Source: Acidithiobacillus marinus (GTDB lineage Bacteria > Pseudomonadota > Gammaproteobacteria > Acidithiobacillales > Acidithiobacillaceae). Taken from it: a stretch of 64,000 nucleotides of DNA. The notes beneath the pieces were generated by a model, which did no database searches, had not been told where the DNA came from, and worked only from the letters and a program-made list of their open reading frames with translations. The stretch is taken from positions 1 to 64,000 of the forward strand of contig NZ_MXAV01000044.1 of assembly GCF_002847505.1 (NCBI RefSeq), read 5' to 3'. The position numbers were made by a program, and so were the translations under genes. Of the stretch, positions 25,982 to 31,218 are shown piece by piece (positions within the stretch are counted from its first letter, which is position 1; each line of letters opens with the position of its first letter).

Positions 25982-27457
25982 TCAAATATCCCAGGGTCTG
26001 GGTGTGGATTCGAGACGTAACCAGAACTTGAGAAACTTTTTGCGTTGCCGGGCTTCCCGCCCCATCAGGAAGCCTAATAGTGCCCCGGCCTGAAAGGCGA
26101 CGCCCGATTTACGCTGGCTGGTTAACGGTTTGAGGTATTGGCCAGCCATGTCGGCATCGTGGATTTCACCGGCAATGCCTTGCAGGGTGGTCAGTAATTT
26201 CAGCAGCGCCTTACTGTCCTTGCCTGGCCATAAGGGGGCCAGGGTCATCAGTACGTAACGGAAATTCTTGATGCGGATGCGCAGGGGATGGAGAGCCTCC
26301 GGGTGCTCGGCTAATAGCTTGCCCGCCGCCATGAGTTTGCGGTATTCCCGCTGGAGTTGCGCTTCGCTGAAATCCTGGAGGCTTTGCTCCCGGTGTAACG
26401 GTTGACGTAACAAAAGCGCCCATATTTTCAGTAAGATGGACACAAGTTGTGACAATGATCCGGATGTCTGGGGGATCTGGGCCTGCAAGACCTCCTGGAG
26501 ATGCTTCGGCTCCAGGTCGAGGATGGTAGCGATTTCCGTCCAATAGCCCAGTAAGGCTTCATAATCGCGCTGGGAGTTTTGCTGATGAAACCACTCCTGA
26601 AGCGGTATGCGAAAAAGCTGCAGGGGGTCGGCGGGATCGAGAGACCGACAGAAACGCAGGCTGGCCCGAAAACTGCGCACGCTTTTGCGCAATTCGTGAA
26701 AGCTCTCGGCATCGGGTTTGGCCCAATGCTTGCGAACGTCATGAATGATCTGCTGGAGCTGCCAGATGAACATTTGGCTGAAAGCGTCTCCGGCATTTTC
26801 CCGACGCCGCAGGGGGAGGGCATTATCGCGAGGTTTTTCTTCGGGCAGCAGTCCGGCGAGCCGTAATCCACGAAAAAGTTTGCTTTCCTGGTCGGGAATC
26901 AGGGGCAGGTCCTGGCAGAGCGCTGCGCCCATTTCGAGTACCGCCGCCGCATCACCGTGGGCGAGTTCGAGTTCCACTTCGCGGATAGCTTCGCGCTGGC
27001 CCCGGGCCAGAATTTCTCCATGATCCAGCGCCACAATGATTTCACTGCCATCACGGTGGGTAACCCGGCTTTCATGACGTTCAAAGCGTGTTTCCAGAAT
27101 CACCTGCAGGGATAGTTCCCGATAAGGTGCCAGTAGGGTCGCTGCCTCGCTGTCCTGAAAAACATTCAGGTCAGGGGTATTACTGTCCACCGGCACATTC
27201 CATTCCGGCCGCTGATGCAGCCCTCCCGCTGACTGACCACTGGCCTTGAGGGTAGCTACCCAGGCATCGTCTTCGCGGCGGATTCGATAGGCCAGACGCG
27301 CGCGCTGCAGGGCATTATCCCGACTATCATAATAAAAGGCATGGAGTTGCAGAGGAGGGGCTTGGGTGATGGCCAGCAGAGGGTGGGCGACGATGTTTTT
27401 CCAGACCTGGGGGGTATCGTCCATGATTTGTAATTTAAGTTCCTCTTCCACCACCAT
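25982..27457 (-). CDS. CYTH-CHAD protein (triphosphatase / polyphosphate-binding)
   Basis: A 491-residue two-domain protein. The CYTH domain (about 1-195) starts with the triphosphate tunnel motif EEELKL (ExExK) and contains LAYRIRREDDAWVATLKASG, LETRFERHES and EVELELAHGD. The CHAD domain (about 230-480) is helical and rich in conserved His/Arg/Lys (FHELRKSVRSFRASLRF, HPLRIRIKNFRYVL). CHAD domains bind polyphosphate and coat polyphosphate granules; CYTH enzymes hydrolyse inorganic triphosphate. Its start overlaps the parA stop in an operon with ppk, which supports a polyphosphate function. Confidence 0.9.
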   Translation of the reverse strand: MVVEEELKLQIMDDTPQVWKNIVAHPLLAITQAPPLQLHAFYYDSRDNALQRARLAYRIRREDDAWVATLKASGQSAGGLHQRPEWNVPVDSNTPDLNVFQDSEAATLLAPYRELSLQVILETRFERHESRVTHRDGSEIIVALDHGEILARGQREAIREVELELAHGDAAAVLEMGAALCQDLPLIPDQESKLFRGLRLAGLLPEEKPRDNALPLRRRENAGDAFSQMFIWQLQQIIHDVRKHWAKPDAESFHELRKSVRSFRASLRFCRSLDPADPLQLFRIPLQEWFHQQNSQRDYEALLGYWTEIATILDLEPKHLQEVLQAQIPQTSGSLSQLVSILLKIWALLLRQPLHREQSLQDFSEAQLQREYRKLMAAGKLLAEHPEALHPLRIRIKNFRYVLMTLAPLWPGKDSKALLKLLTTLQGIAGEIHDADMAGQYLKPLTSQRKSGVAFQAGALLGFLMGREARQRKKFLKFWLRLESTPRPWDI

Positions 27458-28073
27458 CCTCCCTCACAAACTGTAATATCCGTGCCCATTGCGGCAATTC
27501 AAGGCGATTTTCTGTTGAGCGCAGGTCGGCAATCCCTACTCCGGATTGGGCCGCGCGGACATACATCTGACTGTCCCGCAGAGTGGCCACCACCGGTAGA
27601 TTCCATTCGGCCAGTACTGACTGTAGATGCTGAGCGCCGCGCGTCCGGGCATTGACCCGGTTGGCGATGACCCCCATCCGTACTTTGCCCTTGCGATAGC
27701 GTTTGATTTCTTGCAGTTTTTTGAGAAACAACTGACTGGCGTCCAGATCGAATACTGAAGGCCCAATGGGCACCAGCAGGACTTCCACTTCGCCCAGCAT
27801 GTCTTCAAGGCGCTTTTTTTTGAGTCCGGCGGGAGCATCCATCACCACATAATCACTGGGCGGGTAATCGCGGAAGTCGCGTTCGGCATCTTCCAGAACC
27901 TGCAGTTTCGGCAACTGAGCGGAGCGACGCCGGGCCCAGTGGACAGAAGATTGTTGCGGATCCAGATCGGCGATGAGTACTGAACCATGCAGGGCCAGAA
28001 GACTGGCCAGATTGGTGGCCACGGTGGTTTTTCCCGCACCGCCCTTGCTGTTCAATACCAGGGTCCGGATCAT
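27435..28073 (-). CDS. Orphan ParA/MinD-family ATPase
   Basis: A 212-residue ParA-like ATPase: deviant Walker A KGGAGKTTVATNLA, with the signature first lysine, Walker A' VLIADLDPQQSS and Walker B YVVMDAPAG. It lacks the N-terminal HTH of plasmid ParA and no parB or centromere-like repeat is nearby, so it is an orphan of the kind that positions cell cargo on the nucleoid (McdA, PpfA). It lies between ppk and the CYTH-CHAD gene, overlapping the latter by 23 bases. Cargo is unknown; polyphosphate granules are an inference from context. Confidence 0.88.
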   Translation of the reverse strand: MIRTLVLNSKGGAGKTTVATNLASLLALHGSVLIADLDPQQSSVHWARRRSAQLPKLQVLEDAERDFRDYPPSDYVVMDAPAGLKKKRLEDMLGEVEVLLVPIGPSVFDLDASQLFLKKLQEIKRYRKGKVRMGVIANRVNARTRGAQHLQSVLAEWNLPVVATLRDSQMYVRAAQSGVGIADLRSTENRLELPQWARILQFVREDGGGRGT

Positions 28074-28088
28074 GGCCTGGGTTTCCCT

Positions 28089-30194
28089 TCAGGCATGATG
28101 GCTACTGCGATCATAATGCTTGAGGAGGATTTCCTGGGCAGCGTGACAGTCTTCGCTGGGGTTTTGCCGCAGGCTGGTGTAGCTGCCGTCGCTGTTCATC
28201 TGCCAGGCATTGCAATCATCCTGCAGATAAAGCTGCAAGGTTTCTTCCAGGACCCTGGCACGAAGTTCCGGCTCATTGATGGGGGCAGCCACTTCCAAAC
28301 GGCGAAACAAATTACGCCCCATCCAGTCGGCGCTGGAAATCCATAACTTGGGATGGCGACCATTGCCGAAATAATACACCCGGCTGTGCTCAAGAAAACG
28401 GCCGACAATGGAGCGCACCCGGATATTTTCGGAAACACCGGGGATGCCGGGGCGCAGCGCACAGGCTCCGCGCACAATCAGATCAATTTTGACACCTGCC
28501 TGAGAGGCCCGATACAGGGCGCGAATGAGTTCCGGCTCCACCAGGGCGTTCACCCTGGCCAGAATATGCCCATCACTGCCCCTGCGCGCTTCTGCTGCAA
28601 TGGCCTGTATGAGTCCGTCGAAAAGGGTAAACGGACTTTGCAGAAGACGGCGCAATTGCGGCACCTTACCCATGCCGGTGATGTGCATGAACAAGTCATT
28701 CATATCGGCAGTAATGTCCGGATCGGCGGTCAGCAGACTCAAGTCGGTATAAATCCGGGCGTTGCGGGGATGGTAATTGCCGGTTCCCAAATGGGCATAG
28801 AGGCGAATGCCTTCTTCTTCGCGGCGCAACACCAGAATCATTTTGGCGTGGACCTTGTGGTTGACCACTCCGTACACCACTTGCACGCCGACTTCTTCCA
28901 GGCGCTCTGCCAGGCGGATGTTATTGGCTTCATCAAAGCGCGCCTTGAGCTCGACCACCGCCGTGACCTGCTTGCCCGCCAGGGCCGCCTCGATCAAGGC
29001 ATCAATCAGGGGGGAGTCGGGGGTAGTGCGGTACAGAGTCTGCTTGATACCGATGACCTGAGGATCAGCCGCTGCCTGACGCACAAAGTCCAGGACCGGG
29101 GTAAAACTTTGATAGGGATGATGCAGCAAAATGGGGGCTTCACTCAGATGCGCGAAGATGTTTTCCGGGCGTGAGCAGGTACTGGGGAGGCCAGGTACAA
29201 AAGGCGGAAAAAGCAGGTCCTGGCGCGGCACCATGTCAATAATGGCCGCCAGGCGTGACAGGTTCACTGGGCCTGGGAGTGAATAGAGGTTGTCGTCTGC
29301 CAGTTCGAAATGCTTGAGCAGATAATCCACCACTTCCCGGGGACAGTTGCTGGCGACTTCCAGGCGCACAGCCTCACCGAAAGGGCGCATGGGTAATTCG
29401 TCCACCAGGGCATCGAGGAGGTTGTCCACTTCTTCCTCATCTACAAACAACTCGCTGTTGCGGGTGACCCGAAACTGATAAAAGCCCTGGATTTTCAGGC
29501 CTGGAAACAGCGCGGTCACATGCTCGTGGATGACTGAGGAGAGAAAGACGAAATCACTGGGTCCAGCCAACTGCTCCGGAATCTGGATGATGCGTGGCAA
29601 AATCCGGGGAGCCTGGACGATGGCGATGGGGCTACGCCGACCATAGGCATCCTGTCCTTCCAGAACAATGGCAAAATTCAGTCCCTTGTTCTGCACTTTG
29701 GGAAAGGGGTGAGCGGGATCCAGGCTGAGGGGAGTCAGCAGCGGCATGACTTCGGTCTGAAAATAATTACTGATCCAGCGTTTTTGTGCGGCCCGCCATT
29801 CTTTCCGGCGCAGCAGGCGGATGCCTTCCTTGGTCAGCGCCGGCAGCAGACGCTGATTCAGGCAAAGATATTGCTCGTGGATGATCTCATGGGCCATTTG
29901 CGCCACAGCGGTAATTTCTCGATGCGGTCCCAGCATGTCTGGACCCAGTGGACCTGCACCAAACTTCCGCCTTTGCAGAAGTCCGGCCATACGGACTTCA
30001 AAAAATTCATCCAGATTGCTGGAAACAATGGTCAGAAAACGCAGACGTTCGAGAAGAGGAACACGGGGATCATCGGCCAGAGCCAGAACCCGCTGATTGA
30101 AGGCAAGGATGCTTAGGTCCCGATTGAAATACAGGTCGGGATTATCGAGGGAGAGGGGATTTTCCTCGGTGTTGCTTTGAAGGGTTTCAGTCAT
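28089..30194 (-). CDS. ppk: Polyphosphate kinase 1
   Basis: A 701-residue Ppk1. N-terminal motif [16 protein letters not shown], helical head domain, then two PLD-like catalytic domains; the autophosphorylated His is in [17 protein letters not shown] and the second conserved His in [15 protein letters not shown]. It reversibly transfers the gamma phosphate of ATP to polyphosphate. The start overlaps the folD stop (TCATG context), and parA follows 15 bases after its own stop. Confidence 0.96.
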
Positions 30195-31047
30195 GGGCTT
30201 GACGTTGCTCTGCAGCCAGCAGCGTGTTCTGCAGGAGAGTTGCCACGGTCATGGGACCCACTCCGCCGGGGACCGGGGTAATCCAGGATGCGCGCTTTTC
30301 GGCTTCGGCAAATTCCACATCGCCGGTCAGGCGGCCATTGGCGAGGCGGTTGATGCCGACGTCAATGACCACCGCGCCCTCGCGTACCCAGTGCCCCGGA
30401 ATCAGCCCGGGTTTGCCGGCTGCAGCAATCAGGATTTCCGCGCGCTCGACATGAGCCTGCAAATCACGGGTAAAACGATGACAAACGGTGACCGTAGCCC
30501 CGGCCAGTAACAACTCCAGAGCCATGGGGCGGCCGACAATATTGGAGGCACCCACAATGACGGTTTCTTTCCCCCGAATATCCGTGCCGATGTCTTCCAG
30601 CAGGGTCATGATGCCGGCTGGTGTACAGGAGCGCAGCAGCGGCGCCCGCAGGGCTAGCCTGCCGATGTTGTAGGGATGAAAGCCATCCACATCTTTCTCG
30701 ACGGCAATCGCCTCGATGATGACTTCCGGATCAAACTGGGGGGGTAGGGGTAACTGCACGAGAATACCATCAATACTCTCTTCGGCATTCAACTCGGCAA
30801 TTTTATGGAGCAATGCGTCGGGGCTGGTATCGTTGGATAAATTAATAGCCAAGGAATGGATACCCACGCTTTTACAGGTATCGCGTTTTTTCTGGACATA
30901 GACTTCCGAGGCAGGATTATTCCCTACCAGCACAACGGCGAGTCCAGGTGGACGTCCGTGGATCTGGAGAAAATTCTGACATTTCAGGGCGATTTCAGCC
31001 TGCATTTTTTTGGCTATCGCTTTACCGTCAATGCGTCGGGCAGTCAT
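30187..31047 (-). CDS. folD: FolD, methylenetetrahydrofolate dehydrogenase / cyclohydrolase
   Basis: A 286-residue protein from ATG 31047 (AGGGGAA upstream); a start 13 codons earlier is less likely. Motifs [19 protein letters not shown] (catalytic Lys), [27 protein letters not shown] (NADP-binding) and [14 protein letters not shown] are all present. It interconverts 5,10-methylene-, 5,10-methenyl- and 10-formyl-THF. First gene of the folD-ppk-parA-CYTH/CHAD run. Confidence 0.96.
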
Positions 31048-31181
31048 TGCTTCCCCTGCGTCAGATGAGCACTGCGGGGGGAACACTTCTTCACCATGAA
31101 AATAACCTTATGAATGATCTGTGCCGTTTCAAATGCACTAATATCCCAACATTCTTCTGTTCGCCCGTTTTTTTGTCAAGT

Positions 31182-31218
31182 AAAAAAGGCTGGATGCTTT
31201 TATGGAGCATCCAGCCTT
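31182..31218 (-). terminator. Rho-independent terminator after the RND operon
   Basis: A 12-bp perfect stem (AAGGCTGGATGC / GCATCCAGCCTT, arms 31186-31197 and 31207-31218) with a 9-base loop is followed on the minus strand by a run of T residues. It closes the efflux operon 21 bases after the permease stop. Confidence 0.9.

Follow-up and report, generated by a model that had tools for sequence, protein, structure and literature searches.

A ParA-type ATPase paired with a CHAD protein in the polyphosphate operon of Acidithiobacillus marinus, a possible positioning system for polyphosphate granules

The unit described here lies in a 64,000-nucleotide stretch of the Acidithiobacillus marinus genome (contig NZ_MXAV01000044.1, positions 1 to 64,000; this whole stretch is called the window) and holds the genes for polyphosphate kinase 1 (PPK1), a small ParA-type ATPase and a CYTH-CHAD protein. 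The ParA gene and the CHAD gene stay side by side across the order Acidithiobacillales, and a second, separate group of ParA proteins is paired with CHAD proteins in the reversed gene order in other families. The second pairing is new here and raises the significance of the pair in the window. As for function, the sequences suggest a ParA-type system that positions polyphosphate granules, or their CHAD/PPK coat, a reading to which we give a probability of about one half.

Conservation of the pair in Acidithiobacillales

The unit occupies positions 31086 to 25982 of the window's minus strand, with its genes in the order folD>ppk1>parA>CYTH-CHAD. The ppk1 gene (28089..30194) encodes a PPK1 of 701 amino acids (aa), matched by TIGR03705 (898 bits) and the Pfam PP_kinase models N, middle, C1 and C2. 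The parA gene (27435..28073) encodes a 212-aa ATPase with a CbiA/ParA match at E 1.4e-15, and the CYTH-CHAD gene (25982..27457) a 491-aa protein, presumed to be a polyphosphate-granule protein, with matches to CHAD at E 8.5e-27 and to CYTH at E 8.6e-20. The folD and ppk1 genes overlap by 8 nucleotides (nt), a gap of 15 nt separates ppk1 from parA, and parA overlaps the CYTH-CHAD gene by 23 nt. An earlier note, made from this DNA alone, had described ppk, a ParA-like ATPase without ParB and a CYTH-CHAD gene as overlapping or nearly so; the family searches agree on all three, and the neighbours of parA are ppk1 and the CYTH-CHAD gene, with no ParB gene adjacent. Its gene list passed over folD, which lies inside the span it covered.

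Window-type ParA is found in 29 of the 31 genomes of the order (E at most 1e-40) and the CHAD protein in 30. In every one of the 29 ParA-bearing genomes, parA lies directly 5' of the CHAD gene on the same strand, with a spacing, by coordinates, from overlap to 62 nt. The exceptions are genome G025, with CHAD and no ParA, and G435, which is 61% complete and has neither. In the window's own family, ppk is immediately 5' of parA in 25/25 genomes; this count covers G000–G024, leaves out G434, G436 and G437, and includes G016, where the contig breaks at this point and the ppk contig carries the start of parA. The earlier note would have counted a parA next to ppk in this genome alone as evidence against its reading; this refutation failed, as the neighbourhood extends through the family. 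In genome G026, which belongs to a sister family, a gene for a 464-aa lyase stands between ppk and parA, and parA still adjoins CHAD. Judged by gene order, therefore, parA and CHAD are the tighter pair, and parA and ppk the looser one. Of 13 genomes from other orders, 7 gave a match to ParA at E 1e-15.

The first gene of the unit is folD (30187..31086, minus strand; NF008058, 443 bits), which has a GTG start and an alternative in-frame ATG at 31047, the point at which the span of the earlier note ended. Between folD and the upstream RND efflux gene there are a promoter-like site (31151..31179, minus strand; TTGACA, 17 nt, AAGAAT; 10/12 consensus matches) and, 3' of the RND gene, a terminator-like hairpin (31186..31218, minus strand; a 13-pair stem and a T tail). 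Both are pattern matches only, and in shuffles of the region chance yields 6.3 such hairpins (10 found) and 3.0 such promoter-like sites (5 found). With these two signals in that position, the four genes from folD to CYTH-CHAD look like one unit and are probably transcribed together. At the other end, pepN is convergent with the CYTH-CHAD gene.

A second ParA–CHAD pairing

CHAD proteins are present in 156 of 299 genomes, and the neighbours of 80 CHAD loci of other Pseudomonadota were searched with profiles. The loci were hand-picked from part of the match list and are not a random draw: long open frames were taken first and 16 short ones added, with a single locus from each genome and with G000 and G039 left out (the CHAD locus of G039, L098, has no ParA). 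A ParA lies directly 3' of CHAD on the same strand in four of the 80 (G139, G303, G152 and G174), one further ParA is 2.5 kb away (G240), and ppk lies within about 4 kb in three. That four of the five ParA matches adjoin CHAD has a p of 2.5e-4 under uniform placement, with kinship among the genomes ignored. Three more pairs, in G034, G430 and G344, bring the total to seven genomes of other families. In all seven the order is reversed, CHAD>ParA, and the two genes either overlap or lie no more than 17 nt apart. A search with the second-type ParA gave matches in 68 of 398 genomes; 30 of the 70 places listed became loci whose neighbours were read, and the six best-scoring of these have CHAD next to ParA. 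In the other 24, no CHAD was found within the 1.5 kb or less examined.

The tree of 104 ParA sequences keeps the two groups apart. The order's 26 CHAD-linked ParAs group together in one clade (100/98) within a clade of 53 rows (100/99), and the seven second-type linked ParAs fall in a separate clade of 31 rows (100/100) together with 24 unlinked ones. The linked second-type rows are not a clade of their own, since unlinked rows stand among them (3 changes, 2 forced). Long branches meet in this tree, so the deep joins are unsure, and the separation rests on the 53-row and 31-row clades. When the window ParA is compared with that of G034 by BLAST, the two align essentially only over the nucleotide-binding region (42 columns); the CHAD proteins of the window and of G139 are also distant, with a best piece of 29% over 110 columns. 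On this phylogeny, two separate ParA groups are each paired with CHAD, which argues for a functional unit.

At E 0.01, every one of the seven CHAD proteins of the second type matches CHAD and none matches CYTH (two are cut short at the end of the locus, and the start of the G034 protein was set by hand). No PPK1 match occurs in the flanks examined of the seven pairs. In G034 a PPK2 gene is nearby, a family recognisable just for the genes run against Pfam, and a histidine phosphatase gene is near the pair of G139. Other neighbours also deserve mention. In G174 (L145, 3381–5880) CHAD>ParA is followed by a gene whose product carries a PhoU domain fused to a kinase-like (APH) domain, and then by a RimK-like ATP-grasp gene. 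Beside the pair in G344 (L235, 5915–7532) there is a stand-alone CYTH gene and then a NUDIX gene, and beside that in G430 (L234, 5346–7248) CYTH and NUDIX genes stand in convergent orientation. It looks as if the catalytic CYTH half had turned into a separate gene in these two genomes.

One could consider PPK1, or some unlinked protein, as the partner of a granule-positioning ParA, with CHAD merely a coat protein. The ppk1 gene is, after all, directly 5' of parA in the window's family, and about 21 residues precede the first PPK1 domain. The lyase arrangement of G026 speaks against it, since parA stays there with CHAD and not with ppk, and so do the seven second-type pairs, which have no PPK1 match in the flanks examined. 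We consider this division of roles improbable.

The ATPase and the CYTH-CHAD protein

The window protein is an intact ParA-type ATPase by its motifs and its predicted fold. Its KGGAGK motif fits the pattern KGGxGKT, a deviant Walker A motif with the signature lysine, and it also has the Walker A' and Walker B aspartates. Residues K10, G11, G12, G14, K15, D36, D38 and D79 are invariant in 29/29 aligned rows, CHAD-linked and unlinked (the window and 28 of the 35 loci L032-L066). The AlphaFold2 model has a mean pLDDT (the predicted confidence score) of 90, and the top matches in a fold search are the ParA 3cwq (TM score 0.82) and ParF. The protein thus has both the fold and the deviant Walker A motif of ParA/MinD ATPases. 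Its isoelectric point (pI) of 9.9 is compatible with DNA binding. A basic cluster (K124, R125, R127, K128, K130 and R132; residues 124–132, window 27678–27704) is kept in 10 CHAD-linked rows and is less constant in 19 unlinked rows. It is a candidate for a patch facing DNA or polyphosphate.

The genome has 16 CbiA matches, 10 of them above the cut-off, and one CHAD gene. Among the ATPases are a MinD (NCBIfam) and, on another contig, a ParA beside ParB, labelled Soj here for that position; no ParB gene is directly beside the window parA, and the ParB next to Soj is the one seen elsewhere in a genome not searched for further ParB. Another ParA lies on contig C30 in an alpha-carboxysome locus with CsoS2, the carboxysome carbonic anhydrase CsoSCA and CsoS4, and is a putative McdA from its gene location alone. 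With these three in place, the chromosome, division and carboxysomes look catered for, and the window ParA is probably not the ATPase for any of them. Contig C30 carries a further small ParA-family gene as well (L228, 7763–8416), near what by eye are glycine/proline-rich, secreted-looking proteins.

Plasmid partition ATPases are among the closest known systems. Like TP228 ParF and the NF041546 family, the window ParA is about 210 aa long and has a deviant Walker A motif; the nearest fold is theirs, and the best family model is NF041546 ParA_partition, at 118 bits, which is under its cut-off of 180 bits. It differs from them in having no adjacent ParB gene and a fixed place in a chromosomal polyphosphate operon. 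The five closest named relatives, at 86–93% identity, are from Acidithiobacillus species. Matches occur in 24 plasmid records, all below 60% identity, the best among the 12 listed being 38.7%. Conceivably, parA could be no more than a passenger: a partition ATPase of plasmid type that settled in a housekeeping operon and is kept there by co-transcription, with some other cargo or none. The plasmid-record relatives (12 of 24 listed, at about 34-39% identity; some of these records are 3-4 Mb) would suit that origin, most of the closer relatives look, by eye, like lone ParA genes, and G025 lives without parA. However, a passenger would hardly be expected beside CHAD in 29/29 genomes and across the rearrangement in G026, and an equivalent pairing has arisen in a second ParA group. 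The passenger explanation is therefore an unlikely one.

The CHAD protein of the window combines a CYTH domain bearing the ExExK motif with a CHAD domain, as in the CYTH-CHAD (YgiF-like) proteins. Residues E4, E6 and K8 of the motif are invariant in 12/12 rows (the window and 11 of 12 loci; L033, cut short, was left out). The protein's two halves differ in pI, with a value of 5.1 for the acidic CYTH half and 9.84 for the basic CHAD half. Tumlirsch and Jendrossek (2017) are credited in other papers with placing CHAD proteins on polyphosphate granules. Polyphosphate binding and granule location are described for other CHAD proteins (PMC6537752, in the part available). As a side observation, genome G014, which is flagged as 7% contaminated, has a second CYTH-CHAD gene (contig C876:23240-24703), 44% identical; at E 1e-40 it gave just one ParA match.

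The best solved relative by sequence is E. coli YgiF (5a60), an inorganic triphosphatase with the same two domains, at E 2.5e-20, and no class IV cyclase is among the 4 solved-structure matches at E 1e-3. The fold search also places YgiF first (E 5.7e-16); chains titled putative adenylate cyclase begin at 5.4e-5 (2gfg), and 3n10, a class IV cyclase, is at 1.8e-3. This bears on a published proposal that the unit makes cyclic adenosine monophosphate (cAMP) and that the CYTH-CHAD protein is a polyphosphate-gated class IV adenylate cyclase, ACAci (PMC6416229, as far as its available text goes). In its favour, the residues of the CYTH motif are present. However, the triphosphatase ranks above the cyclase chains by both sequence and fold, the proposal leaves parA poorly explained, and a CYTH domain is not recognisable in CHAD proteins of the second type. 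Of the alternatives considered here, we give this one very little credence.

Granule positioning and its partner question

How such a system might work can be sketched as follows. PPK1 would make polyphosphate, and the CHAD protein would bind it as a protein of the granule surface. The small ParA-type ATPase would sit on the nucleoid as a dimer bound to adenosine triphosphate (ATP), and the CHAD protein, alone or in complex with PPK, would recruit and reset it, triggering its release. Granules would then track the ParA gradient and spread, an McdA-like ratchet that spaces them and shares them out at division. Contact between ParA and CHAD, stimulation of the ATPase, nucleoid binding and the positioning itself are what we infer from the genes. 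Gene neighbourhood is a recognised guide to the cargo of a ParA (PMC10241942), and the partner is usually encoded directly 3' of parA (PMC8262871), as the excerpts of these papers have it.

Several observations weigh against this reading. G025, the other genome of the sister family, has ppk, a lyase similar to that of G026 (aspartate ammonia-lyase model, 582 bits) and CHAD, and no parA, so a ppk–CHAD unit can live without the ATPase. Merely 4 of the 80 surveyed CHAD loci adjoin a ParA, and CHAD lies beside none of 27 unlinked ParAs of the window type (L028–L031 and L044–L066, several with short flanks). In addition, no basic, disordered N-terminus was found on either candidate partner: the first 30 residues have a net charge of −3 in CHAD and −5 in PPK1, and of −3 to +2 in the six of seven second-type CHAD proteins measured (the start of the G152 protein was hand-chosen). 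Nor is there a C-terminal tail common to all ParA-linked CHAD proteins.

The unlinked ParAs of the window type have no common downstream partner by eye. In two Roseibium loci (L044 and L045) a ParA 44–45% identical to that of the window lies about 6.2 and 3.8 kb 3' of ppk; an RNase D-like gene, by eye, stands in between, and the proximity to ppk is taken as weak. Near unlinked ParAs of Gallionella and Nitrosomonadales, on the opposite strand, there is a lysine/alanine-rich protein (L064, 9317–9715; L065, 9185–9655) that in our view resembles the histone H1-like AlgP, or PhaF, in its look.

The N-terminus matters since partners of ParA/MinD ATPases are described as having a positively charged, disordered one (PMC10241942, in part). 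In the CHAD model, residues 1–4 are the only N-terminal ones below pLDDT 50, and the first CYTH strand begins at residue 6. By their net charges, CHAD and PPK1 lack a charged partner peptide at the N-terminus, and this candidate was rejected. An RPW motif near the CHAD C-terminus was set aside too. It is present in 24/25 family rows (in G001 it is broken by an N) and in 1/53 CHAD proteins without an adjacent ParA; FW, YW or PW occurs in the last 30 residues of 46/53 of the latter, and G026 has ParA and no RPW, so the motif looks like a trait of the family. For the earlier note, which had proposed CHAD as the adaptor of ParA, the outcome is mixed. The link it saw is kept across the order, survives the ppk rearrangement and recurs with another ParA group, in some genomes beside phosphate genes. 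Its simplest form, with CHAD acting like ParB or McdB through a basic, disordered N-terminus, failed on the sequence, and the parA-free ppk–CHAD unit of G025 does not support the note either. Without a partner-type N-terminus, a ParB/McdB-like adaptor is less probable than it was, and contact of another kind is possible.

The same result could be read in favour of a pair that works together without positioning anything, with ParA as an ATP/adenosine diphosphate-dependent switch on the CHAD protein or PPK1 that governs the synthesis or hydrolysis of polyphosphate or access to it. Tight coupling to metabolic enzymes and no dedicated adaptor, an intact CYTH motif in the window protein and the missing partner-type N-terminus would all suit a switch. 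However, the second-type CHAD proteins lack a recognisable CYTH domain and the flanks examined of their genes lack a PPK1 match (one has PPK2), which leaves the CHAD domain as the element in common, and the fold of the window ParA is closest to partition ATPases. We hold such a switch to be unlikely, about on a par with the passenger. Granule positioning could also be stated more broadly and more tentatively: ParA–CHAD pairs would be a class of polyphosphate-granule segregation systems to which different ParA lineages gave rise at least twice within Pseudomonadota. The ATPase would there be engaged and reset by CHAD's folded body and not through a basic tail at the N-terminus. This broader statement is possible, though rather doubtful.

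Among known systems, a close comparison is McdAB, in which a ParA-type ATPase spaces carboxysomes on the nucleoid in Synechococcus and Halothiobacillus (PMC13052382 and PMC8262871, in the parts available). In both cases the ATPase is encoded with the genes of its known or presumed cargo. The window ParA differs in that its presumed cargo is polyphosphate granules, its gene is in a polyphosphate operon and not in or beside a carboxysome operon, and the carboxysome locus of this genome has a ParA of its own. Also, no small, disordered McdB-like gene is seen beside the window parA, in a comparison that included no search aimed at McdB. For YgiF proteins and CHAD phosins, the text available mentions no ParA partner; CHAD proteins of the second type differ from YgiF in that no CYTH domain is recognisable.

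The order folD–ppk–parA–CHAD in Acidithiobacillus was already published in 2019 (PMC6416229) and 2024 (PMC10892726). In the sections available, the first interprets the cluster as a cAMP signalling system that is linked to polyphosphate and connected with metabolism and cell division, and the second reads CHAD in copper resistance and notes ParA for plasmid partition; granule positioning appears neither in section 11 of the first nor in the available text of the second. A ParA for polyphosphate granules, or a reversed CHAD–ParA pair, was not among the matches listed in open-access titles and abstract openings, a scope that mostly leaves aside subscription papers and the bioRxiv collection. The words "polyphosphate" and "CHAD" are absent from the main text of the ParA/MinD study in Halothiobacillus neapolitanus (PMC10241942). 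The earlier note's statement that no system of this make-up had been described therefore holds for function, within this literature, and not for gene order.

A 2025 review of bacterial organelle positioning gives, in its table, only AlgP for polyphosphate granules (PMC13052382, seen in part). AlgP is histone H1-like, the granules are evenly spaced, and tethering to the nucleoid is proposed; the review lists ATP dependence as unknown, and energy use as remaining to be seen. The window system would share the positioned cargo with AlgP, unlike which its protein is ParA-type. A ParA dedicated to granules, if true, would answer the energy question and add a storage polymer to the list of ParA cargos, and the second pairing offers a comparison set for a direct test of what the two types have as their common requirement, ParA plus CHAD. 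If the folded CHAD body is indeed what ParA engages, both the cargo and the kind of partner would be new to the family. Polyphosphate is reported to have an important role when acidithiobacilli detoxify metals (PMC6416229, in the part available), so the inheritance of granules could matter for these biomining bacteria.

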